A stretch of DNA of 64,000 nucleotides from a virus. A program made the position numbers and the translations under genes. Location: the IMG/VR virus record IMGVR_UViG_3300045051_000720, positions 62,001 to 126,000 of that record. One strand, written 5' to 3'. The notes below the pieces were generated by a model, which searched no databases, had not been told where the DNA came from, and saw only the letters and a list, made by a program, of their open reading frames with translations. Below, piece after piece: positions 13,492-56,831 of the stretch; positions within the stretch are counted from its first letter, which is position 1, and each line of letters starts with the position of its first letter.

Positions 13492-13500
13492 GAAAAATGG

Positions 13501-26503: not shown

Positions 26504-26523
26504 ACAGATAGATGGAAGATTTC

Positions 26524-35152: not shown

Positions 35153-36331
35153 ATGCCCCTACCGCGATTTGACTGGCCTCTCGCTACGGATTCGTTCAGC
35201 CTGCTTGACCGCGCCCGCATTGCGTGGTGGCAACTGACCACCCCCCAGTTCACCATGGGTCCGCGCGTCGAGGAGTTCGAGCGCGAGATGAGCAAGCTGG
35301 CGGGGGTGCGCGCGTTGGGGGTATGCAACGGATCTGTTGCCAACCAGCTGGTGTTCGAGCTGTGGAAGGTCAAGCATCCTGACCAGCCGAGGCCCCTCGT
35401 CATCGTTCCTGCCGTGACGTGGGTGTCCAGCATTACCCCGGCCATGATGGCGGGTTTTGAGATTGCGTTCTGCGACATCAACCTGACCGATCTCAGCTTC
35501 GACTACGACATGCTCGCGCGGATGCTGGAGAACCGGTCTGGACAACCGACCATCATCTGGCCCACCGCCTTGATTGGCTTTTGTCCCGACATGGAGCGCC
35601 TCCATCAGCTTGCCGCCAAACACGGCGCGGAGGTGTTCCTTGACGCTTGTGAGAACACCCTCAGCTATACGCGGTGGGACCAGTCTATCCTCGCAAGTGC
35701 CGCACTGACAACGACTAGCTGCTATTTCAGCCATCAGATCACTGCGGTGGAACTGGGTTTTGTTTTCTTCCGCGACGAGTCCGACTACATGCTCGCGCGG
35801 ATGTTCCGCAACCACGGCATGTCACGCTCGCTGACCGGCCCTCACGCCGCCGCGCGCAAGCTGATTGAGGACGCCAATCCGTCTATAGACCCGTCCTTCC
35901 TATTCGCCGTACCCGGCACCAACCTGCGCCCGAGCGATGTCCACGCTATGTTCGGGCTGAGAGACATCAAGCGGGTGGACCGGTACCGCCTGCACCGCAC
36001 GGCCATCTACCGCCGGTTCCACGAGGGGTTGGACCAATCCCGCTACTACCTCCCGCCACTCACCGAGACCCATGTGGGGTTCTGTTTACCGATCATGCGG
36101 CGAGACGATGCAATCGGCTTTGTCAAGCAGATGCTGAACGGGATGGGTGTGGCCACTCGTCCGCTCATTGGCGGGAATCTCCTCCATCAACCCCCGTTCA
36201 AGCGGTACGGGCGGCCGGAGGACTATCCTAATGCCGAGTGGGTTCACCAGCACGCTGGGTATTGCGGCCTACATCCGGGCGTGACCGAGGACATGGTGGA
36301 TGGGCTCGTGGAGGTCCTCAACGGTCTATGA
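35153..36331 (+). CDS. DegT/AHBA-fold PLP/PMP enzyme, ColD-like sugar 3-dehydratase
   Basis: A 392-residue fold type I enzyme. GVCNGSVANQLVFELWKVKH binds the phosphate of the cofactor, VFLDACENTL holds the aspartate that pairs with the pyridine nitrogen. At the place of the usual catalytic lysine the chain reads TSCYFSHQITAVELG: a histidine replaces lysine, as in ColD, which removes the 3-OH of GDP-4-keto-6-deoxymannose. Length fits ColD. The N-terminal region FTMGPRVEEFEREMSK is also typical. Leaderless from its own promoter. Confidence 0.75.
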   Translation: MPLPRFDWPLATDSFSLLDRARIAWWQLTTPQFTMGPRVEEFEREMSKLAGVRALGVCNGSVANQLVFELWKVKHPDQPRPLVIVPAVTWVSSITPAMMAGFEIAFCDINLTDLSFDYDMLARMLENRSGQPTIIWPTALIGFCPDMERLHQLAAKHGAEVFLDACENTLSYTRWDQSILASAALTTTSCYFSHQITAVELGFVFFRDESDYMLARMFRNHGMSRSLTGPHAAARKLIEDANPSIDPSFLFAVPGTNLRPSDVHAMFGLRDIKRVDRYRLHRTAIYRRFHEGLDQSRYYLPPLTETHVGFCLPIMRRDDAIGFVKQMLNGMGVATRPLIGGNLLHQPPFKRYGRPEDYPNAEWVHQHAGYCGLHPGVTEDMVDGLVEVLNGL

Positions 36332-36753
36332 AGACGCTCGCGGAACTGCCCGCGCTAGATCAGCTAGCCCACTGCCCTCTCAACACCCGCATCTGGTTTG
36401 AGGAGGAGAGTCAGCCGTACCGCGTGCGGGCGCGTAGCTCGCGCTATCTTGTCTGCACCAAACCGTTCAACCCAAAGCACACCGTCCTTTACACCATCGT
36501 GGACCTCGTGGAGAACGTGCGCGGCCCAGAGAATCTCGTCTTTGGGATGGGTGCGGAGAGCGACGAAGACTGCGTTGCGATGATTGAGCGGCTACACGGG
36601 ATCACCAGACCGCTAACCGCCAAGGAGACGGCGGAGGTAAAAACACTCCCGCGCAACCTGCGGCGGGTATGTCAACCACTGTTGGTTGAACCAACCGAGG
36701 TATCTCATCGTCACCGCATCGATCTCAAGGTGGCGCGGGTAGCGTTGTCATGA
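36328..36753 (+). CDS. Hypothetical protein, 141 residues
   Basis: Starts MKTLAELPALDQLAHCPLNT. A beta-rich first half (QPYRVRARSSRYLVCTKPF), then a helix with EDCVAMIERLHGI and a basic C-terminus. No known motif. Coupled to both neighbours. Confidence 0.58.
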   Translation: MKTLAELPALDQLAHCPLNTRIWFEEESQPYRVRARSSRYLVCTKPFNPKHTVLYTIVDLVENVRGPENLVFGMGAESDEDCVAMIERLHGITRPLTAKETAEVKTLPRNLRRVCQPLLVEPTEVSHRHRIDLKVARVALS

Positions 36754-36923
36754 TAGCCCGCGCCAAGCGTTACCGTCTGGTCAAGCGTCTCGTCAACGAG
36801 TACCTCGACGCGGCCATTCGTGATCAACGCCGTCGTCCTCACATGGCGCGACTCAACTTGACCGGCGCGCAGGGTGTGCTGGACGCCGCGGTGAGATGCG
36901 AAGCGAAGGCGGGATTTGGATGA
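36750..36923 (+). CDS. Small basic protein, 57 residues
   Basis: ATG overlapping the previous TGA; peptide begins MIARAKRYRLVKRLVNEYLD and is rich in Arg and Lys throughout, with one likely helix. ATGA overlaps at both ends support it. Could bind nucleic acid. Confidence 0.55.
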   Translation: MIARAKRYRLVKRLVNEYLDAAIRDQRRRPHMARLNLTGAQGVLDAAVRCEAKAGFG

Positions 36924-37618: not shown

Positions 37619-37824
37619 TCGCCGACTCGTTAGGTGGCAACCTTACCGATTACCCCTCGGTCCTTGACGCCCTGCGCGAGGCCAATGTGATGACCATCAA
37701 ACCAATGGATGGTCACTCTCGCGTGCGCGAGAGGTGTGATCGGTACTACCAGATCTACTTGACCCGCGATCAGGTGCTGGCGTGGGCTGATGAGTTGCGC
37801 GCAATGGTTGACAAGGGGGTCTAA
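37612..37824 (+). CDS. Hypothetical protein, 70 residues
   Basis: Starts MLIADSLGGNLTDYPSVLDA, ends with a helix DQVLAWADELRAMVDKGV. Overlaps the stop of the previous gene by seven bases; its 3' end runs into the promoter of the next gene. No motif. Confidence 0.55.
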   Translation: MLIADSLGGNLTDYPSVLDALREANVMTIKPMDGHSRVRERCDRYYQIYLTRDQVLAWADELRAMVDKGV

Positions 37825-37836
37825 CCCCGCTAACAT
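37808..37836 (+). promoter_or_regulatory. Promoter, TTGACA-17-TAACAT, leaderless
   Basis: TTGACA, spacer with TCTAAC, TAACAT, seven bases, GTG start. Confidence 0.82.
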
Positions 37837-37843
37837 GGGGTCA

Positions 37844-39160
37844 GTGGATACCCCTTTCGCCGCTGATTTCCGCGCGTTGTTGACCAAGCATGGGATCACT
37901 GCGCCTCGGGCTGCACATGGGTCCTATGTCTTCAATCCCGCCAAGCCCAGTGTGCTTTACTCTGGCCCCGTGCACGACGCCGAAGAGATGGTTGCGGCGG
38001 TGAGTGCGCTCGTGGAGTCTCGATGGTCAGTTGCGGGGGAGCAGGTGGGACGGTTTGAGCGCGCGTTTGCTCAGACCGTGGGCAACCGCTACGGCGTCAT
38101 GGTCAACTCAGGGTCCTCAGCCAATCTCGTTTTGATTGGCGCGGCGAAGGAGGTGTTTGGGTGGACCACGGATGATGAGGTCATCACCTCGTGTGTGGGT
38201 TTCCCCACGACCGCATCCCCTATCGTCCAGCACGGACTGACTCCTGCGTGGGTGGACATTGAGTGGGACAGCCTGAACCTAGACCTCGGCGCGGTCAAGC
38301 GGGCTATCACGAACCGCACTCGCGCGGTGCTGGTCGCGCCTGTATTGGGCAACCCACCCGATATGGATGCTCTCATCGCACTGTGCCGCGAGAACGGGCT
38401 GGTGTTGTTAGTCGATGACTGCGATGGACTCGGCACCAAATGGGATGGGTTACCACTGCCCGCGCTGCCGGGCGTCTATGCTTCCACTTGTTCGCTTTAC
38501 CCCAGTCATCATATATCGACTGGGGGCGGCGGCATGGTGACCTCCAATGATGAGAGGGTGATCGATGTCGCGCGCAGTCTCGCTAGTTGGGCCAAGGACT
38601 GCTTCTGTTCTGGCGTGGGCAACCTTATCCCCAACGGTTGCTGCGGCAAACGATTCTCGCGCTGGCTTGAGTCGGAACCCGACCTCATCGTGGACCACCG
38701 CTACACCTTCCCTCGGATCGGCTACAACCTGCTCCCCCTTGAGATCCAAGGGGCAATGGGTCTCACCCAGCTGATCAAGCTGCCCTCCATCATTGCCAAG
38801 CGGCGCGCTAACCACGATCTAATCGCGCAGTGGTTGTACGCTATCCCCGGAGTGCGCGGCGTGAGGGTTGAGCCCAAAGCAGAGGTGTCGTGGTTCGGGG
38901 TACCAATCGTTGCGGAGACACAGGCGCTCAAGGAGGAGCTGCTCAATCACCTTGAGGCACACGGGATTCAGACGCGCGGGTATTTCGCCGGCAACCTGCT
39001 CGCGCAGAAGGGTTTCGCTCATCTGGGTGACTATCGCGCCTATCCGAATGCCAATCAGGTTCTACGGAAGGTATTTTTCGTGGGCTGTGCGCCCACGTAT
39101 AGTCCCGCGCATCTTGCCCATATCGAATCGACCCTCAAGACCTTCGTGCCACCGACATGA
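37844..39160 (+). CDS. RfbH/E1-like 3-dehydratase with iron-sulfur motif
   Basis: A 438-residue enzyme of the DegT fold; GTG start seven bases after a -10 element. SSANLVLIGAAKEVFGW binds the cofactor phosphate and LLVDDCDGLG holds the key Asp. The catalytic Lys is replaced by His in STCSLYPSHHISTGGGGM, as in RfbH/E1 enzymes. A cysteine cluster DCFCSGVGNLIPNGCCGKRF matches the place of the [2Fe-2S] site of that family. It would dehydrate a nucleotide-linked 6-deoxy-4-ketohexose at C3. With the ColD-like gene at 35153 this gives two different dehydratases. Confidence 0.8.
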   Translation: MDTPFAADFRALLTKHGITAPRAAHGSYVFNPAKPSVLYSGPVHDAEEMVAAVSALVESRWSVAGEQVGRFERAFAQTVGNRYGVMVNSGSSANLVLIGAAKEVFGWTTDDEVITSCVGFPTTASPIVQHGLTPAWVDIEWDSLNLDLGAVKRAITNRTRAVLVAPVLGNPPDMDALIALCRENGLVLLVDDCDGLGTKWDGLPLPALPGVYASTCSLYPSHHISTGGGGMVTSNDERVIDVARSLASWAKDCFCSGVGNLIPNGCCGKRFSRWLESEPDLIVDHRYTFPRIGYNLLPLEIQGAMGLTQLIKLPSIIAKRRANHDLIAQWLYAIPGVRGVRVEPKAEVSWFGVPIVAETQALKEELLNHLEAHGIQTRGYFAGNLLAQKGFAHLGDYRAYPNANQVLRKVFFVGCAPTYSPAHLAHIESTLKTFVPPT

Positions 39161-39381
39161 CCTCATCCATTTGGACCAGCCAAGACGGTAACACCACTCT
39201 CATTCTCTCTAAGGTGGACGGTTTCACACTGTGGCCCGCAGGAAGCAGCGGCAGCAGCAGCTACCCCCGCCGTCTCTCGGTCTATGTCAATGGGGTAGAC
39301 GTGCTGATCCGTGAGGATGCTGACATCGAGTCGCTACTCGCTATGCTGAAGACGCGAGTGGCGAAAGGAGCAATGGGATGA
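39157..39381 (+). CDS. Hypothetical protein, 74 residues
   Basis: Starts MTSSIWTSQDGNTTLILSKV; a small beta-rich protein with a serine/glycine loop and a helix at the C-terminus. ATGA overlaps at both ends. No motif. Confidence 0.56.
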   Translation: MTSSIWTSQDGNTTLILSKVDGFTLWPAGSSGSSSYPRRLSVYVNGVDVLIREDADIESLLAMLKTRVAKGAMG

Positions 39382-39659
39382 CCAAGACCACCATCGAACT
39401 GGAGCGTCATACAGTTGTCGAGACTGACAACGGGACGCCCCTATGTGCCATAAGTCCATCGGTTGACGTGATGGATCGTGTGATGCAGACGGCCAACGAG
39501 GCTGGACTCAAGGTCTATCACCACGCCGTGCGTGGCGCGCGCCAAGTGTTGTCGACGCGTACCGTCGCCGATCCGGTTCGATCCTACGATACTTATGCCG
39601 CAACGATGACCGAGCGGACAGTCGAATACGTCTGGTTTGTTGACATCTACCTCCAATGA
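39378..39659 (+). CDS. Hypothetical protein, 93 residues
   Basis: Starts MTKTTIELERHTVVETDNGT and has alternating short strands, ending ERTVEYVWFVDIYLQ. Overlaps both neighbours by four bases. No family recognised. Confidence 0.56.
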   Translation: MTKTTIELERHTVVETDNGTPLCAISPSVDVMDRVMQTANEAGLKVYHHAVRGARQVLSTRTVADPVRSYDTYAATMTERTVEYVWFVDIYLQ

Positions 39660-39871
39660 GCCTCACCAATCACGACCTGTGGCAGCTGCGCTGGTTCTGG
39701 GAGGACAAGGGTGATGTCACCCGCTACTGCCGGTGGGATGAGATTGAGGCGGAGGTAGAGCGCACGCACCCCGAGATCACGCAGGCCTACCGCAACCTGA
39801 TCGCGGCGCGACGCACGCTGTCCGCAGTGCTGGTAGCCGCGACGAATGGGCTACCGGAGGACGAATCATGA
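39656..39871 (+). CDS. Hypothetical protein, 71 residues
   Basis: A helical, tryptophan-rich small protein beginning MSLTNHDLWQLRWFWEDKGD, with a second helix AYRNLIAARRTLSAVLVAA. Coupled to both neighbours. Function unknown. Confidence 0.56.
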   Translation: MSLTNHDLWQLRWFWEDKGDVTRYCRWDEIEAEVERTHPEITQAYRNLIAARRTLSAVLVAATNGLPEDES

Positions 39872-40707
39872 GCGCGTCCGTTATGGGGGTAGGTTTCGTC
39901 GGTGGTCGCTACTGCGCGATGTACCCGGACGCCATGCCGGAACCTCGCTATACCGTCAAGCCCACGCGAGATGACGTTCTCTTCACCCGTTCGACCGTCG
40001 ATAACTACGCGCCGCTTCACGGTGATTTCCACACCGACATCGAGACCAACTTGCTTCACCTAACCGAGGTGCTCCCCCACGTCTCCGGGATATTCAACTT
40101 CGTGTCGAGCTGGTTCACGGTCGCCAACGCCGGGCAGTGTTTCGATTCGCCCGCGCGCGAGGACGACCTCTGCGACCCCAACGGGTACTACAGCGCGACA
40201 AAGGCCTGCGCCGAACACCTTGTACGCTCCCACACCCAAACCGCTCAAGCGGGGCTTATCCCCGGCCCGCGTGCCTACCGCATCCTGCGTCTTGGTAACG
40301 TGCTTGGCATTGACCCACGCGCGTCCAAGACTAAAAACGCGCTTGTTCACCTGCTCGCCAAGGTCAAAGCGGGCGAGGACGTGACGGTGTATACCGGCGA
40401 TTGTCTGCGCGACGTGATGCATGTTGATGACACTTGCCGCGCGATTCGGCTGTGTCTTGAGCGTGGCACACTCGACACCATCTACCATATCGGCTACGGG
40501 ACCAGTGTGCGTACCATCGATTTGATCGAGCACGCGAAGGGCGTGACGGGGTCGCATTCACGCATTACGCTCGTCGCGCCGCCGAGGTTCCATCAAATCG
40601 TGCAGGTGCCTGATTTCCATTTTTGCACAGCCAAGCTCCGCGGGCTGGGCTTCGTCCCTGATATGGACCCCTACCAAGCGGTTGAGCGGGTGTTGGCAAA
40701 CCTATGA
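39868..40707 (+). CDS. NAD(P)-dependent sugar epimerase/reductase (SDR family)
   Basis: A 279-residue extended short-chain dehydrogenase. GVGFVGGRYC is a short glycine-rich start for the cofactor site, FNFVSSWFTVANAGQ follows the active-site serine region, YYSATKACAEHLVRS gives the catalytic Y-x-x-x-K, and YRILRLGNVLGIDPRASKTK plus DVMHVDDTCRAIRL complete the sugar-binding side. Compared with typical enzymes the N-terminus is about 30 residues short. Could act as the final ketoreductase/epimerase on the product of a 3-dehydratase. Confidence 0.78.
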   Translation: MSASVMGVGFVGGRYCAMYPDAMPEPRYTVKPTRDDVLFTRSTVDNYAPLHGDFHTDIETNLLHLTEVLPHVSGIFNFVSSWFTVANAGQCFDSPAREDDLCDPNGYYSATKACAEHLVRSHTQTAQAGLIPGPRAYRILRLGNVLGIDPRASKTKNALVHLLAKVKAGEDVTVYTGDCLRDVMHVDDTCRAIRLCLERGTLDTIYHIGYGTSVRTIDLIEHAKGVTGSHSRITLVAPPRFHQIVQVPDFHFCTAKLRGLGFVPDMDPYQAVERVLANL

Positions 40708-42315: not shown

Positions 42316-42527
42316 CCATCACCGACCGTATTGCCTCGCTCCTCTGGGACTACACCATCGCGCATAACGCGCGACCGACCGTGCTGCGTTTGACCCGCGA
42401 GGACGAACAGGCTCTAGGTGTGTTGACCTGTTTATACGGTGGACCCGATGTGTGTGGCGCGCCCCCTCCTCCACGCTTCATGGGGATGGTTATTGAGCTG
42501 GACGCCGAGAGGACAGAGGTATGCTGA
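42312..42527 (+). CDS. Hypothetical protein, 71 residues
   Basis: Starts MTITDRIASLLWDYTIAHNA, similar to the start of the previous gene (MTITERNDFI), which may point to a shared N-terminal module. C-terminal strand FMGMVIELDAERTEVC. No function known. Confidence 0.55.
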   Translation: MTITDRIASLLWDYTIAHNARPTVLRLTREDEQALGVLTCLYGGPDVCGAPPPPRFMGMVIELDAERTEVC

Positions 42528-43096
42528 CGCGCCTGCATCACGTCGTCGAAATCGGCGCGGGTGACGTTGCGTCATCTGCCCTGAGCTGGGCTACCCACGC
42601 GGACCGCGTTTCGCTTTATGAACCGAACGTCCTGCTTTGGAGCGACCTGATGCGCGGCGCGGCGGGTCTGGACAACGTGACGGCGCGCAACATGGCCGTC
42701 AGCGATGTTGGAGGTAACCAACCCCTCTATCATCTGGGCCTCGGGTCATACCTCGCGGGTGCGCCGTCGTTTTATGCGACATCTATCGAGCCTGAGGGTG
42801 TGCCGTTCATCGTGTCCCTCGCGCGCGCGGTGGAGGTCATCACAATCAATCAGGCGGTGCCCGAGGACACGGATCTCCTCATCATCACGATTGGCGGCGG
42901 CGAGTGGCGGTTGCTGGCCCCCATGACAATGCGCCCCAAGACCATCGAGACGGCGCACTATTGCCACAATGCCGCGCAGTGGGCAGACACGCATCGTACG
43001 TGGGATTGGTTGCAGGGAGCGGGCTACGTGGGGATGGTGATGGCGACTAATCAGCACTCCACCTTCCACCGTGTGAGATGGACCTTGACACCCTAG
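42521..43096 (+). CDS. Methyltransferase-like protein, FkbM-type
   Basis: A 191-residue protein with HHVVEIGAGDVASSALSWAT (motif I), DRVSLYEPNVLLWSDL (acidic residue after the second strand) and DLLIITIGGGEWRLL in the place where FkbM enzymes keep their catalytic-side Asp. Small for the family. May methylate a sugar; assignment is moderate. Confidence 0.6.
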   Translation: MLTRLHHVVEIGAGDVASSALSWATHADRVSLYEPNVLLWSDLMRGAAGLDNVTARNMAVSDVGGNQPLYHLGLGSYLAGAPSFYATSIEPEGVPFIVSLARAVEVITINQAVPEDTDLLIITIGGGEWRLLAPMTMRPKTIETAHYCHNAAQWADTHRTWDWLQGAGYVGMVMATNQHSTFHRVRWTLTP

Positions 43097-43113
43097 GTCA
43101 ACCCCGCTACGAT
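43085..43113 (+). promoter_or_regulatory. Promoter, TTGACA-17-TACGAT, leaderless
   Basis: TTGACA at the very end of the methyltransferase gene; spacer with GTCAAC; TACGAT, six bases, ATG. Confidence 0.8.
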
Positions 43114-43119
43114 AGGGTC

Positions 43120-44138: not shown

Positions 44139-44662
44139 AGAGGGGTGGCAGGGGTCGCGGTTGGAGTAAAGAAGACGAAGACGTTCTTCGAGCAGAATAT
44201 CCAAAGGGTGATTTGGCGGCGGTTGCATTGCGTCTTGGGAGAACAGAGACGGCAGTGAGGATGCATTCAAAAATACTTGGATTTCGTCGGCCTCGACGTT
44301 TCCATGGTAGCCGTAATCCAAACTTTGCTGGTTATGGCAGGATATCAAAAAGTTATTTTAGTCGAGTCAAAAGAGGTGCTTATAAAAAGGGGTTAGAAAT
44401 GTCAGTGTCATTGGAATATCTTAATTCTATCACAGTAGATCGTTGTCCTTTTTGTGGTAGGGCCTTGGTTTACAAAAACTTTAGTGTTGGGGAAGAGGTG
44501 ACCGCCTCCTTGGACCGTATTGATTCTAGACGGGGCTATATTGAAGGTAATTTACGTTGGATTCATAAAGACATTAACATCATGAAGTCTAATATGACCG
44601 ACGCTGAATTTTTGGGTTGGGTGTTTGACATATGGAGGCACACACATGATCAAGGGATCTAA
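44135..44662 (+). CDS. HNH homing endonuclease
   Basis: A 175-residue protein: an N-terminal Myb/SANT-like DNA-binding part (GWSKEDEDVLRAEYPKGDLA, LGRTETAVRMHSKILG) and a C-terminal zinc HNH-type domain (VDRCPFCGRAL and ASLDRIDSRRGYIEGNLRWI, then HKDINIMKSNMTDAEFL). The gene is AT-rich. It is followed by a related gene with the same domain order, so the pair may be a duplication of an invading unit. Confidence 0.78.
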   Translation: MKRGGRGRGWSKEDEDVLRAEYPKGDLAAVALRLGRTETAVRMHSKILGFRRPRRFHGSRNPNFAGYGRISKSYFSRVKRGAYKKGLEMSVSLEYLNSITVDRCPFCGRALVYKNFSVGEEVTASLDRIDSRRGYIEGNLRWIHKDINIMKSNMTDAEFLGWVFDIWRHTHDQGI

Positions 44663-46082
44663 TTGGACCGCAGAAGAAGATTGCGTGCTCCGCGCTCTTT
44701 ACTCCCACGCTACGACAAAGCGTGAAGATTTGTTGTCAGCGTTACCCAAACGCACTTGGAAAGCCATTCTTAGTCGAGCTAACAAAAAATTAGGTCTGAC
44801 ACAAAAATATCATATTGGCAGCCCGCGGGGCACAGCCAATCCGTTAGCTACAGGAAAGGGTCAAATTATTGGCTCATTTATGTATCAAATGAGACAGAGC
44901 GCGGATACTCGTAATTTGGAGCGTCCTTTGCTTGATGGGTCTGATGAGGGCTACGATTACCTTAACGAAATCATTACAGAAGTCTGTCCGTTGTCAGGTA
45001 GGCCGCTTACGTTTCCTAAATTTAGTGGAGATCAGTCTAAGACTGCGTCTCTTGACAGAATAGATTCTTCACTAGGCTATGTTAAAGGTAACGTAAGATG
45101 GGTTCATAAGACGGTCAATATCATGAAAAAGAATATGGGAGACGCACAATTCATGGACCTTATCGAGGATATGGTTGAGCATTGTGTTGTAGCAAAGCCA
45201 AAAACAGACGAAGAGCGTTCGCGTATGAAAAAGATACTTGTTTGCACGATTGCCCGTAATGTTGAAAAGCAATTACCAGAGTGGGCCAAACGCCTAGAGC
45301 GGTTACGTTTTTTGCTGGCTCAAGAAGGTTGGCTAACTGATTTCAGTGTTTACGAAAACGATTCAACGGATTTAACCTCTTCTACCGCGAAGGCCTTGTT
45401 AGATGGGTTGGGTAATCAGGATTCTCGGATCTGGTTTACTTCTGAGGTGATTGGTACTAAGCACTATGGTTCAATATGGAATATAGATCGTTTACGTAAT
45501 CTGGCTAATGCCCGGCAAAAATGTTTAGATCAGATTGGGTCAGACGCACTGCAAACCTATCACAAAATTGCGTATATAGAGCCTGACGTTACTTATGACC
45601 CAGTGTGGTGTAGTGAATTGGTGTTGGCTCGTCACCCCCGAGCCGCTGGGCTAGGCGAACCAGACATCTATAGCGGATGGAGTCTTCGCACTCAAAAAAA
45701 TCCAAAGGAAAGTATTTTTTTGTTTGATACCTGTGCCACCCGCGCGACCAAGGATGATGTGTGTTGGGACATCACCGAGCGCAACGGTACTTGGCGCGGC
45801 GCAACGGTTGTACCGACCGATCTGGGCGGTCACGATGCAATGTGCCTCCATCCTGTGTGGTCAACGTTCTCGTGCTTCTGCGTCTACAACGCCGAGCCGT
45901 TCAAACGTGGCGTGCGGTGGGGGTTCGTCAATGCCCGACTCAACACGGGGCAGACGCCCGTGGGAGATACTGCGTTTCTTGGCTGGTTGGATGCGGACAC
46001 TTCGGTAGTCTGCGAGGCGTTCCGCGCGCGGGGCTATGATAAGGTCTATCTCAACACCAACTGTTTGATCAGACACGCATGA
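44646..46082 (+). CDS. HNH endonuclease fused in frame to a GT69-like glycosyltransferase
   Basis: A 478-residue chain. Residues 1-190 repeat the plan of the previous gene: Myb-like WTAEEDCVLRALYSHA, then CPLSGRPLTFPKF and ASLDRIDSSLGYVKGNVRWV. From about residue 193 a glycosyltransferase begins, MKKILVCTIARNVEKQLPEW, with KIAYIEPDVTYDPVWCSEL as the acidic site and FCVYNAEPFKRGVRWGFVNA near the end, like GT69 (CAP59/CMT1) enzymes. The internal Met may be the true start of the enzyme. Composition is AT-rich up to about 45730, inside the transferase, then becomes normal. Confidence 0.7.
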   Translation: MIKGSNWTAEEDCVLRALYSHATTKREDLLSALPKRTWKAILSRANKKLGLTQKYHIGSPRGTANPLATGKGQIIGSFMYQMRQSADTRNLERPLLDGSDEGYDYLNEIITEVCPLSGRPLTFPKFSGDQSKTASLDRIDSSLGYVKGNVRWVHKTVNIMKKNMGDAQFMDLIEDMVEHCVVAKPKTDEERSRMKKILVCTIARNVEKQLPEWAKRLERLRFLLAQEGWLTDFSVYENDSTDLTSSTAKALLDGLGNQDSRIWFTSEVIGTKHYGSIWNIDRLRNLANARQKCLDQIGSDALQTYHKIAYIEPDVTYDPVWCSELVLARHPRAAGLGEPDIYSGWSLRTQKNPKESIFLFDTCATRATKDDVCWDITERNGTWRGATVVPTDLGGHDAMCLHPVWSTFSCFCVYNAEPFKRGVRWGFVNARLNTGQTPVGDTAFLGWLDADTSVVCEAFRARGYDKVYLNTNCLIRHA

Positions 46083-46906
46083 ACCCGCGTCGTCAAGTCC
46101 GCTTCGGTTTCCCCACAAACGGGTTCAGCGTAGGCGACACCTTCCTGTTCACTCCGGTGTGCCGCTACACTGACGTGACCTACGAGATCCCCGTCGACTC
46201 ATTTTGCGCGTCGGACATCGCGTCCGTCCTCCAGAGCGTGGCCCGCATCGAGTACGTCCATACTCCCATCAAGGAGGAGGAGTCGTTCGCGCAGTACGTG
46301 GCCCAGTATGGCCCGGTCCCTCAGATCCCACCCGTGCGTTGCCTCCACTCTGCACGACGTTGGTTGCTGCGGTATGGCATTGACGCGCCTAACGCTCTCC
46401 CTTACGCCGAGCCGCCGATGGCGGACGTAGAGTGGGCGATGAAGTGGCTTCGGCTGTACCGGCGTCCCATCGTGTTTACTCCCATTCCCGGCGGTCTGAG
46501 CAATCCCGCCGACCTGTTAGCGCGGTATAAGTACGTGCCGCCGCAGGTGTGGACTGCGACATTGGAGCGCCTCGCGCGCGACCACGACCTCCTCTACTTC
46601 ACCGCCCGGGAACACCACGTGCCCTTTCCCCACGTCAAGACCCTTCTTGGGTTTCCCGTGGCTAAGATCGCGGCTATCATGTGGCTCTGCAAGCGCCACC
46701 TCGGCGTCGAGAACGGGCTCCTGCATCTGGCCATTGCTATGGGAGCGACCTGCCGGGTGGGTATGCCCACCATTGACGGCAAATCCCTCTGCGAGGTGGC
46801 CGACTACTACGTCTATGCGGGTGATATGTGGCGCACGGAGCCGTGCCGTGCGTTCTATCATCTGTTCGACGACGCATCGGACCACGCCAATATCGTCTAT
46901 TCATGA
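46079..46906 (+). CDS. GT9-like glycosyltransferase
   Basis: A 275-residue protein. It opens RFGFPTNGFSVGDTFLFTPV, the GT9 pattern, and KRHLGVENGLLHLAIAMGAT near residue 205 fits the donor motif where E replaces the D of D-T/S-G. FTPIPGGLSNPAD is the hinge region. Probably the third GT9-like enzyme of the locus. Confidence 0.7.
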   Translation: MNPRRQVRFGFPTNGFSVGDTFLFTPVCRYTDVTYEIPVDSFCASDIASVLQSVARIEYVHTPIKEEESFAQYVAQYGPVPQIPPVRCLHSARRWLLRYGIDAPNALPYAEPPMADVEWAMKWLRLYRRPIVFTPIPGGLSNPADLLARYKYVPPQVWTATLERLARDHDLLYFTAREHHVPFPHVKTLLGFPVAKIAAIMWLCKRHLGVENGLLHLAIAMGATCRVGMPTIDGKSLCEVADYYVYAGDMWRTEPCRAFYHLFDDASDHANIVYS

Positions 46907-47436
46907 ACCTCCATCTCGGCTGCGGCAATGTGCGCCTGCCCGGCTTTGTTAACATCGACAGCCGTCACCTTCCCGCGGTAGACCGGGTGGACAACATCCG
47001 CCATTTGCGCTCGGTACCGGATGGTTCGGTCGATCTTGTCTACTGCTCCCACGTACTAGAGCACTTCAGCCGGTGGGACTACCCGCAGGTGCTGGCAACG
47101 TGGCATCGCGTGTTGCGGCGCGGAGGCGTCTTGCGCGTAGCCGTGCCCGATTTCCGTGCCATCGTCAACCGCTATATCGACACGCACGACCTGCCAGACC
47201 TTATCGGTCTGCTCTATGGCGGACAAGACTACCCCGAGAACCACCATCACTACGCGTGGGACATTGCGTCGTTGACGCATGACCTAACCGCAGTGGGGTT
47301 CACTAATGTGCGCCGGTACGACGCGCGAGCCACTGAGTACGCTCACATCCACGATTGCAGTCAAGCCTACCTGCCGCGCATGGACAAGGTCAATGGGGAG
47401 CTGATGAGCCTCAACGTCGAGTGCGAGAAGCGTTGA
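46903..47436 (+). CDS. SAM-dependent methyltransferase, Methyltransf_11 type
   Basis: A 177-residue protein: NLHLGCGNVRLPGFVNIDSR is motif I with the acid of motif II, SVDLVYCSHVLEHFSRWDYP is motif IV, and WHRVLRRGGVLRVAVPDF motif V. Complete for a small class I enzyme. Starts at the ATGA overlap. Likely modifies a sugar or lipid-linked intermediate. Confidence 0.82.
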   Translation: MNLHLGCGNVRLPGFVNIDSRHLPAVDRVDNIRHLRSVPDGSVDLVYCSHVLEHFSRWDYPQVLATWHRVLRRGGVLRVAVPDFRAIVNRYIDTHDLPDLIGLLYGGQDYPENHHHYAWDIASLTHDLTAVGFTNVRRYDARATEYAHIHDCSQAYLPRMDKVNGELMSLNVECEKR

Positions 47437-47461: not shown

Positions 47462-47467
47462 TAGGTC

Positions 47468-47968: not shown

Positions 47969-47972
47969 CACC

Positions 47973-49473: not shown

Positions 49474-49549
49474 CCTACACCTGCCGCGCCCGCGTTTTGG
49501 GCACAGGTTGTTCACCAAACGGGGTCGTGTATAACCCTTTCCCGCTATC

Positions 49550-52015
49550 ATGACGAAGCAAATTTCGACCACCTATTCTTACGATGAGTGCTTGAGCGCC
49601 TCCCAAGCCTATTTCGAAGGAGATGATTTAGCTGCCAAGGTCTTTGTTGATAAGTATGCCTTACGCGACAATGAGGGGAATTTATTGGAGAAGACCCCCG
49701 ATCAAATGCATTGGCGAATCGCACGGGAGTTTGCGCGCGTTGAGAAGAGCAAGTTCAAACATCCGTTGGGGGTAGATGGGATTTATGGTCTGCTTGACCA
49801 TTTCCGTTACATCATTCCGCAGGGATCACCGATGTTTGGAATAGGAAATCCTTATCAAACCATCTCGTTATCCAACTGCTTTTTGTTGGACGTTCCTCTT
49901 GATTCTTATTCGTCTATCCTTCAGGTAGATGAGCAATTGGTCAATATATGCAAACGACGAGGTGGGGTTGGAATTGATTTGTCTAATCTACGGCCTGCGG
50001 GAACGATAACGCGTAACGCTGCGCGTCAGTCAACAGGCATCGTAACGTGGATGGAACGGTATTCCAATTCTATTCGCGAAGTAGGACAAGGAGGGCGCAG
50101 AGGGGCATTGATGCTGACTTTGTCTATTCATCATCCGGACATCATTTCTTTTTGCACGATTAAAAACGATCCAGCCAAGGTAACGGGGGCTAACATATCG
50201 GTTCGTTTGACGCGGGAATTTTTAGACGCCGTCAAGAAAGACGAAGAATATGAACTGCGGTTTCCCGTAGATGCAGCGAAGCCCATTATCTCTACTAAGA
50301 TGCGCGCCAAGGAAGTATGGGATGTTATTATCAAATCTGCTTGGCTGCGCGCAGAGCCCGGATTATTGATGTGGGACAACGTGACAGAAAACACACCCGC
50401 TGATTGTTATGAGGAATACCAAAGTCGCGGTACCAATCCCTGCTCGGAGTTAAATCTTTCACCATTAGACAGTTGTAGACTTTTATGTCTCAATTTGCTG
50501 TCTTATGTCGTCAAACCGTTCACCAAAGAAGCTGCTTTTGATTTTGCTCTTTTTCATCAGCACGGTAAGATTGCCCAGCGTTTCATGGATGATTTGGTCG
50601 ATTTAGAGTCTGAGAAAATAGACTCTATTCTTGCGAAGATTCAGACCGACCCCGAATCAGATCTCGTCAAACGTAACGAGATAGTGTTATGGCAACGCGT
50701 CAAACGCTTCAATGACGAAGGAAGACGCACCGGTACTGGGATTACTGCACTTGGTGATGCCCTAGCCGCCCTAGGGATTGCTTATGGTTCTGAGCAATCA
50801 ATTCAAGTTACGGAAGATATTTATCGCTCTTTGAAGTTGGCTTGTTATGAGTCGTCTATTGATATGGCAGAAGAGTTGGGGTGTTTCAAAGTTTACGATG
50901 CCGCTCGTGAAAAGGATTGTCCTTTTATCAAGAGAATAGCCAAAGAATCTCCTGCTTTGTATGCACGCATGGTTAAGTTTGGTCGACGGAACATTTCATT
51001 AACGACTACCGCTCCGACTGGCTCGGTCAGTCTTATGACTCGCACCACATCGGGGATTGAACCCTTATTTATGACGGGTTATACTCGGAGGAAGAAAATC
51101 AATCCAAATGAGAAAAATGTAAAGGTTGATTTTGTTGACCAAAATGGGGATGCGTGGCAAGAGTTTGTAGTTTATCATCCTACTATTAAAACGTGGATGA
51201 CCATTACTGGGGAAACGAATGTCAAAAAATCTCCGTGGTACGGATGTTGCGCTGAAGATATTGATTGGATCAATCGTGTCAAGTTACAGGCAGCAGCGCA
51301 AAAACACGTTTGTCATGCTATATCATCTACGATCAATCTTCCAGAAAACGTGACGAAGGTAAAAGTGAGTGAGATTTATCAGACCGCTTTTGAGAACGGG
51401 CTCAAAGGTATCACGGTTTACCGCAAGAATTGTCGTAGCGGGGTCATGGTTGAAACCGCCGCCTCCGATCGCGGTGAGAGGATTGTCAAAACTAAGGCCC
51501 CTAAACGACCCTATAGGCTACATGGGGAAGCGCACCATTTTACAATCAAAGGACACCGTTATTTTGTTGCTGTGGGGCTACTAGAAGGGGAACCATATGA
51601 GATATTTGGTGGTGAGAATTGCGATTCCGAGGGTGAGGTCTTGATACCCAAAAATGTAGTTGAGGGGCAACTCGTCAAACATGCCCGAGGTAAGTATAGT
51701 TTAGTAATTGCCGACCACGATTATCCTGTCGTAGGCCCATACTCCGATACCACTGTAGACTCTCTTACAAGAATGATTTCGACAGCTCTCCGTCACGGGG
51801 CAGATATTTCATTCGTTGTTCATCAGTTGGAAAAAACAAAGGGCGAGATGCAAAGTTTTTCCAAAATTCTTGCGCGTACACTCAAAAAATATATCAAGGA
51901 CGGTACTAAAGTAACAGGAGACAAGTGCCCAGAATGTAAGAGGGAAGATTGTGAACTGATTAGAGAAGATGGGTGCATTAAATGCGTGACATGTGGATGG
52001 ACGAAATGCGGATGA
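49550..52015 (+). CDS. nrdJ: Class II (adenosylcobalamin-dependent) ribonucleotide reductase
   Basis: An 821-residue enzyme that makes deoxyribonucleotides using vitamin B12 coenzyme, so no oxygen or small subunit is needed. Signature blocks: SLSNCFLLDVPLDS, then ICKRRGGVGIDLSNLRP, the active-site NPCSELNLSPLDSC, and LTTTAPTGSVSLM for substrate binding. The C-terminal end KCPECKREDCELIREDGCI carries two Cys pairs that reload the active-site disulfide, as in NrdJ/NrdZ proteins with a TSCPD-like domain before it. The gene is clearly richer in A+T than the glycan genes, like the endonuclease gene that follows with a four-base overlap. Confidence 0.92.
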   Translation: MTKQISTTYSYDECLSASQAYFEGDDLAAKVFVDKYALRDNEGNLLEKTPDQMHWRIAREFARVEKSKFKHPLGVDGIYGLLDHFRYIIPQGSPMFGIGNPYQTISLSNCFLLDVPLDSYSSILQVDEQLVNICKRRGGVGIDLSNLRPAGTITRNAARQSTGIVTWMERYSNSIREVGQGGRRGALMLTLSIHHPDIISFCTIKNDPAKVTGANISVRLTREFLDAVKKDEEYELRFPVDAAKPIISTKMRAKEVWDVIIKSAWLRAEPGLLMWDNVTENTPADCYEEYQSRGTNPCSELNLSPLDSCRLLCLNLLSYVVKPFTKEAAFDFALFHQHGKIAQRFMDDLVDLESEKIDSILAKIQTDPESDLVKRNEIVLWQRVKRFNDEGRRTGTGITALGDALAALGIAYGSEQSIQVTEDIYRSLKLACYESSIDMAEELGCFKVYDAAREKDCPFIKRIAKESPALYARMVKFGRRNISLTTTAPTGSVSLMTRTTSGIEPLFMTGYTRRKKINPNEKNVKVDFVDQNGDAWQEFVVYHPTIKTWMTITGETNVKKSPWYGCCAEDIDWINRVKLQAAAQKHVCHAISSTINLPENVTKVKVSEIYQTAFENGLKGITVYRKNCRSGVMVETAASDRGERIVKTKAPKRPYRLHGEAHHFTIKGHRYFVAVGLLEGEPYEIFGGENCDSEGEVLIPKNVVEGQLVKHARGKYSLVIADHDYPVVGPYSDTTVDSLTRMISTALRHGADISFVVHQLEKTKGEMQSFSKILARTLKKYIKDGTKVTGDKCPECKREDCELIREDGCIKCVTCGWTKCG

Positions 52016-53037
52016 CTAACAAGACCAAACAATACCTTGAACGGGCCTGCCAGATTCATAAGAATAAATATGACTATTCACTAGTGAGCGACATCACGAC
52101 GAATAAGCAGTATATTGAAATCAAGTGCCCTATACATGGTGTGTTTAAGCAAGCCGTCTCATCGCATGTCAATGCCAAACAGGGCTGCCCACGATGTGGG
52201 GGTAACTTTCGCAGGACAACAGAAGAGGTGATGGATGAGATTCGCAAGGTACACGGAGACAGATTTACCTATACCCCGTTTCAGTATAAATGTAATAAGC
52301 AGAAAATTGAGATATTCTGTAAAGTGCACGGCTCATTCAAGACTGGTGTTAAAGAACATCTGAACGGTGGTGGGTGTCCTAAGTGCGCTAAGAACGCCAA
52401 AATGAATACGGAGGATTTTATCAAGAAGGCGCGTAAAAAACACGGGGATCGTTATGATTATAGCAAAGTAGATTATCGGTTGTGTGACCAACATGTAACC
52501 ATTACCTGTCGAACTCATGGAGATTATTTACAAACTCCGCACGCGCATCTTGCCGGATATGGTTGTTCTAGATGTGTGGCCAATTCGTCTCGCAAGGAAA
52601 ATTGCTGGCTAGATTCGCTACAGATTGTGGGTTTGCTTAGACAGCATAAGGTCAAAGTAGGAAAAAGGAGATATACAGTAGATGGGTTCGATCCAAAGAC
52701 AAATACGATATATGAGTTTAACGGAGATTATTTCCATGGTAATTACAAGTATTTCGATGGTTGTTGGACTAACCGCGTAACGAAAACGTCGTTTGCCGAG
52801 TTGGCGCGTAAAACACGCGAAAAAGAAAAGGCGTTGAAACAAGCGGGGTATACAGTTGTCTCGATCTGGGAGAGTGACTATCTCGCTTCCTTGGGCAAAG
52901 AATACCGCGATGAGGTTGACTCCACGCAACGGCGGGTCAATCAATTGGCTTTCATTAGAGAATGGCAATTAGCTGACGACGAATGTTTTGATTGGCAGAA
53001 TTTTGCGGCCTTGTTAGGCAAGCCTAAATCTGTCTAG
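52012..53037 (+). CDS. Putative homing endonuclease with CxxC repeats and Vsr-like nuclease
   Basis: A 341-residue protein. Three repeats of about 65 residues have the pattern HGDRYDYSKVDY ... ITCRTHGDYLQTPHAHLAG ... CPxC, a DNA-binding element known from giant virus and phage endonucleases. The C-terminal domain contains YTVDGFDPKTNTIYEFNGDY and FHGNYKYFDGC, which fits a PD-(D/E)xK or Vsr-type nuclease core (D ... E-F-N-G-D). AT-rich. It starts at the stop codon of the reductase, an insertion site often used next to nrd genes. Confidence 0.78.
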   Translation: MTNKTKQYLERACQIHKNKYDYSLVSDITTNKQYIEIKCPIHGVFKQAVSSHVNAKQGCPRCGGNFRRTTEEVMDEIRKVHGDRFTYTPFQYKCNKQKIEIFCKVHGSFKTGVKEHLNGGGCPKCAKNAKMNTEDFIKKARKKHGDRYDYSKVDYRLCDQHVTITCRTHGDYLQTPHAHLAGYGCSRCVANSSRKENCWLDSLQIVGLLRQHKVKVGKRRYTVDGFDPKTNTIYEFNGDYFHGNYKYFDGCWTNRVTKTSFAELARKTREKEKALKQAGYTVVSIWESDYLASLGKEYRDEVDSTQRRVNQLAFIREWQLADDECFDWQNFAALLGKPKSV

Positions 53038-53069
53038 GTGCTCGCGCCCTTGGCGAGCCGGTTAGATAG

Positions 53070-53098
53070 TTGACACCCCCATCCAACGTGGCTAGCAT
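53070..53098 (+). promoter_or_regulatory. Promoter, TTGACA-17-TAGCAT, leaderless
   Basis: TTGACA, spacer with TCCAAC, TAGCAT, six bases, ATG. Confidence 0.82.
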
Positions 53099-53104
53099 AG
53101 GTGG

Positions 53105-53851: not shown

Positions 53852-53853
53852 CC

Positions 53854-54252
53854 ATGCCCCCCGAATCCACCCCTCCTTTTGTGAGTTCACTCCCGCCTGA
53901 GCTGCTGGACGGTCTGGACGATAGAGGGAGATACCTTTACCAATCGGTAGACCGCATCACGCAGGCCCAAGCGTGGCTGATCGAACGGTCTAAGGAGCAT
54001 ACTGAGACCCTCGCTGCGGTGCGGTTGCAGGTCGAGAAAACAAATGGACGTACGACCGCCAGCGAGGCCAAGATCCTCGCGCTGGAAAGCGACCCCGGTC
54101 TCAAGCTGGCTCGGGTGGGCGCGACCCTTGTGCGATCAAAGTGGTTTTGGGGCGCGGCGGCATCGGCGATTATCGTCACGATTTCGGTAGTTGGTGGATA
54201 TGGAGCCGTTGCTCCGCTACAGGCAATAGTTAAGTTGGTGTTTGGGCTTTAA
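53854..54252 (+). CDS. Small phage membrane protein, coiled coil plus transmembrane helix
   Basis: A 132-residue protein. Residues about 30-80 form a long charged helix (ITQAQAWLIERSKEHTETLA and following), then SKWFWGAAASAIIVTISVVGG is one transmembrane segment near the C-terminus. Such a plan is common in small phage proteins next to virion or lysis genes; here the neighbours do not say. A GGTGTATAG element lies 20 bases before the start. Its end overlaps the end of the convergent GIY-YIG gene. Confidence 0.62.
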   Translation: MPPESTPPFVSSLPPELLDGLDDRGRYLYQSVDRITQAQAWLIERSKEHTETLAAVRLQVEKTNGRTTASEAKILALESDPGLKLARVGATLVRSKWFWGAAASAIIVTISVVGGYGAVAPLQAIVKLVFGL

Positions 54253-55348
54253 TCTGTTTCCAGCCCTTGCACTTGTGCTTTGGGGGACCACCAATTCTTT
54301 TCCATCCGAGTACTTCGGAAGTTTTTTCTTTGGCCAACCAATAAAAAGGTTCATAGGGCAGGTTGTTTTGGTGGCAGAATAAACGAAGATTATCGATGTG
54401 AATAGTCTGGCCCGTGGGGTCAATGAGATCAAGACTAAGTATTTTTAAGCAACGACGTGAAATAATGGTTTCGTCGGTAGTTTCGGGGAGTTTCCACCCA
54501 CGATGACTTAGTTGTCTCTTAGCCAAGACGGCCCCTATAGCCTGAGGACGAAGGTTGTTCTTTTTACAAAAGTTACCAATTCCAATACCACTAATTATTT
54601 CTCCCGTGGGAGCGCGTAACGTAAAATGTCTTTCACATTTGCTAACCTCATCTAAACGTTCTTGCAGACGCCATCCTTGGTATTCTAGTTGTTTTTTGTC
54701 TAATAGCCGCAAAAACGAGGCAAGGGTAAATCCATACTCTTGAATGGTTTGTCGGATGTTTGATACTACTAGGGTCCTGCCGTCTTTGTGTTGGAGGTAG
54801 TATCGTTTCCCCACCCTCTCGCCCAATTTGGGGTTATCAAGTTGTTCGCGTGTTAAGCTTACAGAACAAAATCCTTTATGTGTGCGGTATTTTTCGGGGT
54901 GTTTGACGATATACTTCATTTGAGAATTAGATAGTCCATGCGTACGACAAAAGGCTGCTAGATTTACTCCTTCAACGATTTCCCATGTATCAATTCGTCG
55001 TACCCGAAATGGGCGCGAATGGTTCGCGCGAATTTTTTCAATTGATTCGGGCGATAACAAACGATTATCTCCGCAATTTTTCAGGTTAAACCCATTGGGG
55101 ATGTACGCATTAAAACGTTGCGCATAAAAATGTTCCAGTTTATTTAGTTGGGCTATGTCAGTGATATCCTTTTCTAAAATTTCAACGTCGAACGCGTGAT
55201 GCCCGTATTTTTGTGCGGCGTTGAACAAAAGCGGGTTGGTTGTTTGCTCCCACCAGCGACCTCCGGAGTATCGGCGTCGAAAAGAGGTAACGCTTTGGCC
55301 GATGTAACTCTTACCCGTCTCTCGATGGTAGATGCGATAGATGATCAT
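54230..55348 (-). CDS. GIY-YIG homing endonuclease
   Basis: A 372-residue enzyme. IIYRIYHRETGKSYIGQSVT and SFRRRYSGG form the GIY-YIG nuclease core; YAQRFNAYIPNGFNLKNCGD contains the conserved N-G-x-N-L part. Behind it lie repeated DNA-binding (NUMOD-like) segments, for example VNLAAFCRTHGLSNSQMKYI and IGNFCKKNNLRPQAIG. The start MIIYRIY is chosen because the domain begins there; about 24 more residues are possible upstream. AT-rich and opposite in direction to its neighbours. Confidence 0.87.
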   Translation of the reverse strand: MIIYRIYHRETGKSYIGQSVTSFRRRYSGGRWWEQTTNPLLFNAAQKYGHHAFDVEILEKDITDIAQLNKLEHFYAQRFNAYIPNGFNLKNCGDNRLLSPESIEKIRANHSRPFRVRRIDTWEIVEGVNLAAFCRTHGLSNSQMKYIVKHPEKYRTHKGFCSVSLTREQLDNPKLGERVGKRYYLQHKDGRTLVVSNIRQTIQEYGFTLASFLRLLDKKQLEYQGWRLQERLDEVSKCERHFTLRAPTGEIISGIGIGNFCKKNNLRPQAIGAVLAKRQLSHRGWKLPETTDETIISRRCLKILSLDLIDPTGQTIHIDNLRLFCHQNNLPYEPFYWLAKEKTSEVLGWKRIGGPPKHKCKGWKQIKAQTPT

Positions 55349-55468
55349 GAGGGTATGGTGTGATACACCTACCGTCGGCATATTTTGGACTAAATGGGGT
55401 GTGTTTATGGTTGAAGGCATCTCTTTCGAGGCGATTTCTTCATTTATGACGGCGTATCGCCTAGGGTC

Positions 55469-55497
55469 TTGACAAGGGCGGTTAACCCGCCTATGAT
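55469..55497 (+). promoter_or_regulatory. Promoter, TTGACA-17-TATGAT, leaderless
   Basis: TTGACA, spacer with GTTAAC, TATGAT, six bases, ATG. Confidence 0.82.
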
Positions 55498-55503
55498 GGG
55501 GTC

Positions 55504-55785
55504 ATGCCATATGAACACCCCACCGATGACCTGAGACAGGTCCTTGTCGAGCACTGGGAGCAGGTAGGTCCCGAGGGCGCGACCGAGATTGGGTATAGGA
55601 TCTTGAGAGGGCTGCACTATCGCGTGCAGCGCAAGTGGCTTGTGTTTGACGGGGTGCCGTCTGACCCCAAGCAGCACTTTATGGGGACAATGGACGGCAC
55701 CGAGATCAATGGGGTTAAAGGACGACCAGAGTGGTGTGACCTTCCTATCGTGTCTGAGACCGAAGCACAAACCCCTTCTACATGA
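55504..55785 (+). CDS. Hypothetical protein, 93 residues, leaderless
   Basis: Starts MPYEHPTDDLRQVLVEHWEQ six bases after a -10 element. Mixed fold; no motif recognised. It is co-transcribed with the GDP-mannose dehydratase gene, which it overlaps by four bases. Confidence 0.6.
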   Translation: MPYEHPTDDLRQVLVEHWEQVGPEGATEIGYRILRGLHYRVQRKWLVFDGVPSDPKQHFMGTMDGTEINGVKGRPEWCDLPIVSETEAQTPST

Positions 55786-56831
55786 CCAAAATCGCTATCG
55801 TCACGGGCGCGAATAGCATGGATGCCAAGTCCCTCGCGCGCTTCCTCCAGTATAAGGACTATCATGTAGTCCTCACCTTCCGCCGCAACTCTCTCTTCAA
55901 TCGCGATGACTGGTATCGTGAGGTACAGATTGACGCCGCCAATGTCGGACGGTTCTCATTTGAGGTCTGTGACATCACCGACCAGAACAGTGTGCGCGAG
56001 TGCCTGACCGCTGTCCTTGCCAAGCACGGTGCGGTGCACGAGCTGTACATGATAGCTGCCATGAGCCACGTGGGCTACTCCTTCACCCAAAAGGAATACT
56101 CCATCGCCGCGAACGGGCAGTCCTACTATTTTTTCCTTGAGGCCCTTCGCCTGCTCTCGCCCACTACGCGCGTCTATGGTGCGCTCACATCCGAGCTAGC
56201 GGGCAATGTGCCTGACGGATCGGTCTTCAATGAAGACACTCTCTGGCATCCCAAGAGTCCCTACTCGATCGGTAAGGCCCTTGGCGGTCACTGGATTCAG
56301 TTCTACCGCGAGTCGCGCGACGCGGGGATGTTCGCTTGCTTTGGTATCCTGTTCAACCACTCCAACTGGTTCAGAACCAACGACTTCTACGTGATGAAGT
56401 GTGCACAAGCGGCGGCGGAGATAGTGGAGGGCAAGCGTATGTCACTCGCCCTCGGAAATCTGTCGTTTTACCGTGACGAACACTGGAGCGACTACGGGGT
56501 TGAGATGATGTGGGCCATGCTCCAACGAGACACCCCCCAAGACTACGTCGTGGGCACGGGGGTGTGTCATCATGGCGAGGAGTATCTCGACCACGCGTTT
56601 GGCCACTTCAACCTTGATTGGCACAAGCACGTGGTGATTGACGAAACTCTCAAGCGCCCCAACGAGGTGCACCGTTTGGTTGCGGACAGTACTCGCGCGC
56701 AACGCGACCTCGGCTGGAACCCGCGTCGGCTGTCGTTCCAGAACCACATGCGGCATCTGTGTGAGTATGCTTATGTCAAAGCGCGCGGGCAGGTACCTGT
56801 GCTGCCAAACATGTATACGCTGTACCCATGA
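55782..56831 (+). CDS. gmd: GDP-mannose 4,6-dehydratase-like enzyme
   Basis: A 349-residue extended SDR enzyme. IAIVTGANSMDAKSLARFLQ is the glycine-rich NADP site, VYGALTSELAGNVPDG the active-site T/S-x-E region, YSIGKALGGHWIQFYRESRD gives the Y-x-x-x-K, and ACFGILFNHSNWFR the substrate-binding loop of GDP-mannose dehydratases. It would convert GDP-D-mannose to GDP-4-keto-6-deoxy-D-mannose, the start of GDP-fucose, -rhamnose, -perosamine and -colitose routes. The ColD-like enzyme at 35153 can use this product. Confidence 0.84.
   Translation: MTKIAIVTGANSMDAKSLARFLQYKDYHVVLTFRRNSLFNRDDWYREVQIDAANVGRFSFEVCDITDQNSVRECLTAVLAKHGAVHELYMIAAMSHVGYSFTQKEYSIAANGQSYYFFLEALRLLSPTTRVYGALTSELAGNVPDGSVFNEDTLWHPKSPYSIGKALGGHWIQFYRESRDAGMFACFGILFNHSNWFRTNDFYVMKCAQAAAEIVEGKRMSLALGNLSFYRDEHWSDYGVEMMWAMLQRDTPQDYVVGTGVCHHGEEYLDHAFGHFNLDWHKHVVIDETLKRPNEVHRLVADSTRAQRDLGWNPRRLSFQNHMRHLCEYAYVKARGQVPVLPNMYTLYP

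Follow-up and report, generated by a model that had tools for sequence, protein, structure and literature searches.

3,6-Dideoxyhexoses, which are made from CDP-glucose or GDP-mannose and are familiar chiefly from bacterial O-antigens, are strong determinants in antigenicity and as phage receptors. Here we analysed a 64,000-nucleotide stretch of phage DNA (hereafter the window; bases 62001–126000 of the 219,464-base virus record IMGVR_UViG_3300045051_000720, G+C content 59%) with respect to four genes encoding candidate enzymes for such sugars: a ColD-type 3-dehydratase, an E1/RfbH-like 3-dehydratase, a short member of the extended short-chain dehydrogenase/reductases (SDR) and a protein resembling GDP-mannose 4,6-dehydratase (GMD; Table 1). 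An earlier note on this DNA had joined the four into one route to a colitose-like or CDP-type dideoxysugar. All four open frames exist where it had placed them, exactly or to within a few codons. Pfam assigned 35153–36331 and 37790–39160 to the DegT family and 39868–40707 and 55782–56831 to the SDR superfamily, and a search of the entire record returned these four enzymes as its only DegT or extended SDR members. The phage context proposed earlier is sound, since the remainder of the record encodes a terminase, a prohead protease, a capsid protein, a tape measure protein and a J-type tail fibre, as judged by reading the proteins. Host contamination was rejected as the source of the sugar genes, given their phage-type flanking genes and the homologues in other viral contigs.

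Two putative dehydratases with histidine at the lysine position

ColD carries histidine in place of the catalytic lysine of aminotransferases and has no [2Fe-2S] cysteine motif; pyridoxamine phosphate (PMP) forms a Schiff base with the 4-keto sugar, O3 is expelled by the histidine and glutamate restores PMP once the intermediate has hydrolysed, while E1 and SpnQ use a [2Fe-2S] cluster and a reductase instead (PMC8987622). GDP-linked C3-deoxygenation by ColD-type enzymes has also been shown for Campylobacter heptoses (PMC10440746).

The protein encoded at 35153 has a DegT fold (Pfam, 153 bits), and its top match in the PDB was ColD (2gms; E 2.7e-30, 108.7 bits), followed by E1 at 63 bits and perosamine synthase at 47 bits. 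The structure prediction and active-site comparison that the earlier note had proposed pointed the same way: the model reached a mean predicted local distance difference test (pLDDT) score of 92.6, and the top eleven Foldseek matches were all ColD chains. In alignments of 28–31 relatives, the aminotransferase lysine position was histidine in every row, those of both window proteins included. As this residue, His194 of the 35153 protein, is invariant, correct alignment does not restore the lysine, a possibility the earlier note had raised against itself. The protein further retains D164, C166, E167, W90, R219, R225, N257, R259, F310 and R336, several of which separate ColD-type from E1-type rows; W90, R219, R225 and R259 are the ColD-type-only residues, R225 being arginine in two of three E1 rows as well. 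At the four cysteine positions of E1 it has Cys166 alone and hence, as in ColD, no [2Fe-2S] cysteine motif. Both window proteins have dehydratase-type neighbours at the active site, namely tyrosine three residues before the histidine and E167 (D194 in the E1-like protein) at a position that we take to be histidine in aminotransferases. The presumed roles of these residues follow E1 mutagenesis and ColD structure work, together with a review (PMC8987622).

A single-sequence query of viral contigs with the 35153 protein recovered no relatives, whereas a profile query built from the alignment yielded 58, with 38 ColD-type loci among those numbered L105–L144. In a maximum-likelihood tree of 141 sequences the protein joined the viral proteins of ColD type (support 96), but its branch is very long (2.77) and its exact place unsure. 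Its gene is an intact frame in a tight run of overlapping genes. Taken together, these results support the assignment of the 35153 product as a putative ColD-type C3-dehydratase and not an aminotransferase.

For the second DegT protein the best PDB match was the E1 dehydrase (3bcx, E 6e-59), and the best NCBIfam model was RfbH, at 309 bits below the equivalog cut-off of 423. As the earlier note had stated, the protein combines a His-His pair with an iron-sulfur cysteine motif: both histidines and the four cysteines (C193, C253, C255 and C267) were invariant across nine aligned subfamily members, and the protein retains C193, D194, Y219, His222-His223, C253, C255, C267 and F351. It has lost 22 of 134 columns conserved among its relatives, the next-worst member having lost 15. 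In the same tree it lay within a 34-row subfamily (support 100) beside classical E1, while the lysine-type DegT members formed a separate branch. Fold family, His-His pair and four cysteines are thus shared with E1, RfbH and AscC (CDP-4-keto-6-deoxyglucose 3-dehydrase). However, the spacing is C-x-C-x11-C in those subfamily members, from phages and bacteria, that were inspected and C-x-C-x7-C in both classical E1 proteins of the search; the subfamily differs further in its partner SDR and in having rml rather than rfbFG neighbours (see below). As judged from sequence, a C3-dehydratase is again supported over an aminotransferase.

Partner enzymes and gene linkage in other loci

The short SDR matched Pfam Epimerase and gave a confident model (pLDDT 89.5), in agreement with its previous description. 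Structure and fold comparison do not separate epimerase, dehydratase and reductase for this protein; a 4-keto reductase is the probable function. Three small genes lie between it and the E1-like gene (39157–39871). Checked as possible electron carriers, none had a cysteine cluster; family searches gave nothing significant for two of them, and the first was judged from its sequence alone.

The GMD assignment of the earlier note holds at family level. The protein scored 204 bits with Pfam GDP_Man_Dehyd and keeps the active-site motifs TSE (Thr-Ser-Glu), YxxxK, FNH and RPxEV; with the NCBIfam gmd model it reached 192 bits, below the equivalog cut-off of 415, and the nucleotide-binding GxxGxxG motif is replaced by GANSMDA. 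A similarly diverged GMD (48% identical, GITGMDC at this motif) is encoded by a sister phage, L163, a 205-kb viral contig whose terminase is 35% identical and which has the order of the GMD, RecA-like and exonuclease genes in common with the window phage.

On its own the phage has neither sugar route in full. The 219-kb record gave no match to NTP_transferase (any sugar nucleotidyltransferase) and contained no RmlA, RmlB, cytidylyltransferase or CDP-glucose dehydratase. A search with RmlD/ColC gave the known short SDR as the sole signal, with no ColC or Fcl. NAD_binding_1 (E3-type reductase) and Fer2 ferredoxin likewise had no match in the record, which may be incomplete; the host could supply E3. 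The host, or proteins that escaped recognition, would have to supply GDP-mannose, any dTDP- or CDP-4-keto-6-deoxyglucose, the final reductase of the GDP route and the electron donor of the E1-like enzyme.

To compare gene neighbourhoods, linkage in the E1-like subfamily was counted within 3 kb of the dehydratase gene. The E1-like subfamily comprised 34 loci (25 cellular, 8 viral and the window); in the genome scan the cellular members were 44–51% identical, and the next matches of comparable length did not exceed 38%. The short SDR occurred at 19 of the 34 loci, often directly adjacent, and at none of 55 loci of other histidine-type dehydratases. RmlA or RmlB was found at 10 loci, and two (L003 and L038) have a contiguous run of RmlB, RmlA, E1-like and SDR genes. 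The nucleotidyltransferases of L003 and L029 exceeded the NCBIfam RmlA cut-off, while that of L038 remained below it (290 versus 361 bits); the dTDP-glucose 4,6-dehydratase cut-off was exceeded at L003, L004, L005, L019 and L029, with the L020 dehydratase below. In contrast, the CDP-glucose genes rfbF and rfbG were absent from all 34 loci but present at both classical E1 loci. The E1-like subfamily and the same short SDR also occur together in the Synechococcus phages S-B05, S-B43 and S-H68 and in marine virus AG-345-D19; in the examples inspected in detail (S-B05, S-H68 and AG-345-D19) an RmlB-type dehydratase is present as well, which the window phage lacks.

The ColD-type genes showed a different linkage. 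GMD was nearby at 35 of the 38 viral ColD-type loci, many of which also had a gene resembling GDP-L-fucose synthase, and within 3 kb at 10 of 20 cellular ColD-type loci; the active site read SFYFGHH in nearly all of the 38. The short SDR did not appear among the neighbours of ColD-type genes. In Synechococcus phage S-CAM7, gmd, GDP-L-fucose synthetase, 3-dehydrase (colD) and GT11 genes are annotated consecutively. This phage and ACG-2014f resemble the window phage in carrying GMD and ColD-type genes with glycosyltransferases, but their genes are contiguous and include an Fcl-like gene, whereas here they are scattered and diverged and no such gene is present. Based on these patterns, the genes appear to fall into two modules, GMD with the ColD-type dehydratase and the short SDR with the E1-like enzyme.

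A third histidine-type DegT clade (L051, L052, L054, L056–L060, L064–L066 and others) had the motif SFYGSHIINGAGGG and no cysteine cluster. It was found mostly in bacteria of the candidate phyla radiation (CPR) and in small archaea, with CDP-glucose genes within 3 kb at 9 of 24 loci, and possibly represents CDP-linked 3-dehydratases that work without an iron-sulfur cluster. Two further loci, L050 (1251–8761) and L055 (9863–14346), from Hydrogenophilales and Uliginosibacterium, carry a classical E1 beside a CDP-glucose dehydratase together with a ColD-type dehydratase, so that two C3-dehydratases per cluster occur in bacteria too.

Candidate sugar routes and alternative explanations

From these observations we propose, with a probability of roughly 0.5, that the phage has part of the genes for two separate routes of nucleotide-sugar C3-deoxygenation, one GDP-linked and one probably dTDP-linked, and that it probably helps to make rare dideoxysugars. 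Given the genes, folds, catalytic residues, linkage elsewhere and absent partners established directly above, substrates, products, activity and destination might be as follows. In the first module, the ColD-type enzyme would remove O3 with the help of PMP, recycled by glutamate, and of His194 as the base, giving GDP-4-keto-3,6-dideoxymannose, which a host or unrecognised reductase would convert to colitose or an isomer. In the second, host RmlA and RmlB would supply dTDP-4-keto-6-deoxyglucose; the E1-like iron-sulfur enzyme would deoxygenate C3, a host ferredoxin or flavin reductase serving as its electron source, and the short SDR would reduce the keto group. Nearby phage glycosyltransferases and methyltransferases might then use the resulting sugars on a surface glycan.

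A dTDP-linked 3,6-dideoxyhexose is our best guess for the E1-like/SDR pair, and the most likely product class on the grounds of gene linkage, with rml neighbours and never rfbFG. Use of a dTDP sugar has a precedent in SpnQ, an E1-type iron-sulfur dehydratase that acts on dTDP-4-keto-2,6-dideoxyglucose (PMC8987622), although this substrate lacks O2 and the likeness is drawn from the literature description and not from sequence. More tentatively, and with less than even confidence, the C-x-C-x11-C subfamily and the short SDR may constitute a so far unrecognised dTDP-linked 3,6-dideoxyhexose pathway (RmlA, RmlB, E1-like enzyme, short SDR) of many bacterial phyla and phages, combined here with the GDP-linked ColD-type route. 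Sugar genes carried by phages have been described, GMD and fucose synthase among them (PMC9602691), and ColD-type operons are already present in public cyanophage records under the names aminotransferase or CDP-4-keto-6-deoxyglucose dehydrase. A literature search, with most subscription journals outside it, returned no account of a phage-borne 3,6-dideoxyhexose route or of a dTDP-linked one. The C3-deoxygenating phage enzymes and the dTDP-glucose-tied subfamily offer a directly testable prediction of a new nucleotide-sugar pathway, which would account for the 'aminotransferases' beside GDP-mannose dehydratases in many marine phages.

Several observations weigh against the two-route proposal. 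Just 10 of the 34 E1-like loci have RmlA or RmlB, many loci are fragmentary, and rml genes are frequent in glycan loci. On the GDP side, the 35153 protein shares with ColD (WbdK of the E. coli/Yersinia colitose pathway) the fold, the histidine base, the lack of a cysteine cluster, the W90/R219/R259-type residues and, family-wide, the linkage to GMD; however, it is only 24% identical, the genome lacks ColC and the GMD gene lies 20 kb from the ColD-type gene. There are also signs of rapid change: the protein departs from its relatives at 20 of 66 columns with at least 90% conservation (the next-worst member at 8), among them the second histidine (Gln195) and the EGG glycine, and the GMD of the window phage has lost 43 of 116 conserved columns, its sister-phage homologue likewise. 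Moreover, L163 has GMD but no DegT enzyme and no short SDR, which weakens the GDP-dideoxyhexose route. As L163 keeps GMD only, this gene is probably the older part and useful without the others, and the SDR and both dehydratases seem to be accessory.

The same divergence could be a sign of decay or of a new function in the ColD-type protein and GMD, with no GDP-dideoxyhexose made by the phage. The very long branch, the lost columns and the sister phage that keeps GMD without ColD would fit, but we regard this as rather unlikely: the frames are intact within a tight overlapping run, the catalytic His, Asp, Trp and Arg residues are retained with a confident fold prediction, and GMD preserves its active-site motifs. 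That the E1-like enzyme instead acts as RfbH/E1 on host-supplied CDP-4-keto-6-deoxyglucose, the CDP-type route of the earlier note, appears unlikely. Its closest solved structure is indeed the CDP enzyme E1 and RfbH its best NCBIfam model, albeit below cut-off, yet the cysteine spacing differs from classical E1 and the subfamily co-occurs with dTDP-glucose genes, not with the CDP-glucose genes found at both classical E1 loci; nor was a cytidylyltransferase or CDP-glucose dehydratase found in the record.

The linear alternative, in which GMD is followed by the ColD-type and/or E1-like dehydratase and then by the short SDR as a ColC-like reductase, is favoured by the presence of all enzyme classes in one 22-kb stretch, and besides GMD the genome has no SDR other than the short one that could reduce the keto sugar. 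We consider this single route, as drawn in the earlier note, quite unlikely, for the SDR accompanies E1-like enzymes across unrelated bacteria and phages but was not seen beside ColD-type genes, whose known partners in phages and cells are Fcl-like. A destination in hypermodified phage DNA, rather than on the virion or host surface, seems very unlikely: several phages glycosylate DNA with transferases of their own (PMC12619734 cites examples), but the 219-kb record had no match to thymidylate synthase, a common marker of base hypermodification, the search being confined to this one DNA-modification gene. Finally, an ordinary sugar aminotransferase activity of one or both DegT enzymes, as the Pfam family name and phage annotations would have it, is highly improbable and largely refuted by the clade-invariant change of lysine to histidine and the separate branch of lysine-type members, in line with the dehydratase reading of the earlier note.

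Neighbouring genes

The association of the dehydratase genes with glycosyltransferase and methyltransferase genes is supported (Table 1). Counted from 27294, five methyltransferase-like genes are supported, the number given in the earlier note. Its estimate of about ten glycosyltransferases was borne out in part: about five have family support (31137, 32728 weakly, 33723, 48222 weakly and the C-terminal part of 44625 weakly; Table 1 gives the first, third and fourth as 31266, 33744 and 48462), and further genes resemble glycosyltransferases by eye, without any family match.

Table 1. Sugar-related genes of the window, with the four principal enzymes listed first
Feature	Position	Strand	Basis
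ColD-type pyridoxal phosphate (PLP)/PMP C3-dehydratase, putative, divergent, His194 at Lys position	35153..36331	+	PDB, model, Foldseek, tree
E1/RfbH-like C3-dehydratase, putative, four [2Fe-2S]-type Cys	37835..39160 (start 37835 or 37844; first start codon 37790)	+	PDB, alignment, tree
Short extended SDR, E1-like partner, probable 4-keto reductase	39868..40707	+	Pfam Epimerase; adjoins E1-like genes in related loci; model; fold matches
Divergent GDP-mannose 4,6-dehydratase-like SDR	55782..56831	+	Pfam/NCBIfam; PDB GMDs; 48% identical L163 homologue
Methyltransf_24-type methyltransferase	27294..28031	+	Pfam
GT9-like glycosyltransferase	31266..32096	+	Pfam Glyco_transf_9
CmcI/rhamnosyl O-methyltransferase-like protein	32096..32728	+	Pfam
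Possible GT4-like glycosyltransferase	32728..33744	+	Weak Pfam Glycos_transf_1
GT2-like glycosyltransferase	33744..34487	+	Pfam Glyco_tranf_2_4, below cut-off
Methyltransf_24-type methyltransferase, directly upstream of ColD-type gene	34480..35136	+	Pfam
FkbM-like methyltransferase	42521..43096	+	NCBIfam, below cut-off
Methyltransf_11 methyltransferase	46903..47436	+	Pfam
GT2-like glycosyltransferase, 42% identical homologue in sister phage L163	48462..49235	+	Weak Pfam

Outside the sugar genes, fourteen tRNA genes were found across 5 kb (8578–13572). The large subunit of a ribonucleotide reductase is encoded at 49550–52015; uncultured huge phages (46% identity) were among its closest phage records, and some related records bear the label vitamin B12-dependent. 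Homing-endonuclease-like genes are interspersed with the sugar genes at 54230–55420 (minus strand), 26512–27297, 51982–53037 and 44625–46082. They comprise GIY-YIG, HNH+AP2 and DUF723/treble clef types and a fusion of an endonuclease-like N-terminal part to a glycosyltransferase-like C-terminal part, and one such gene directly precedes the GMD gene.

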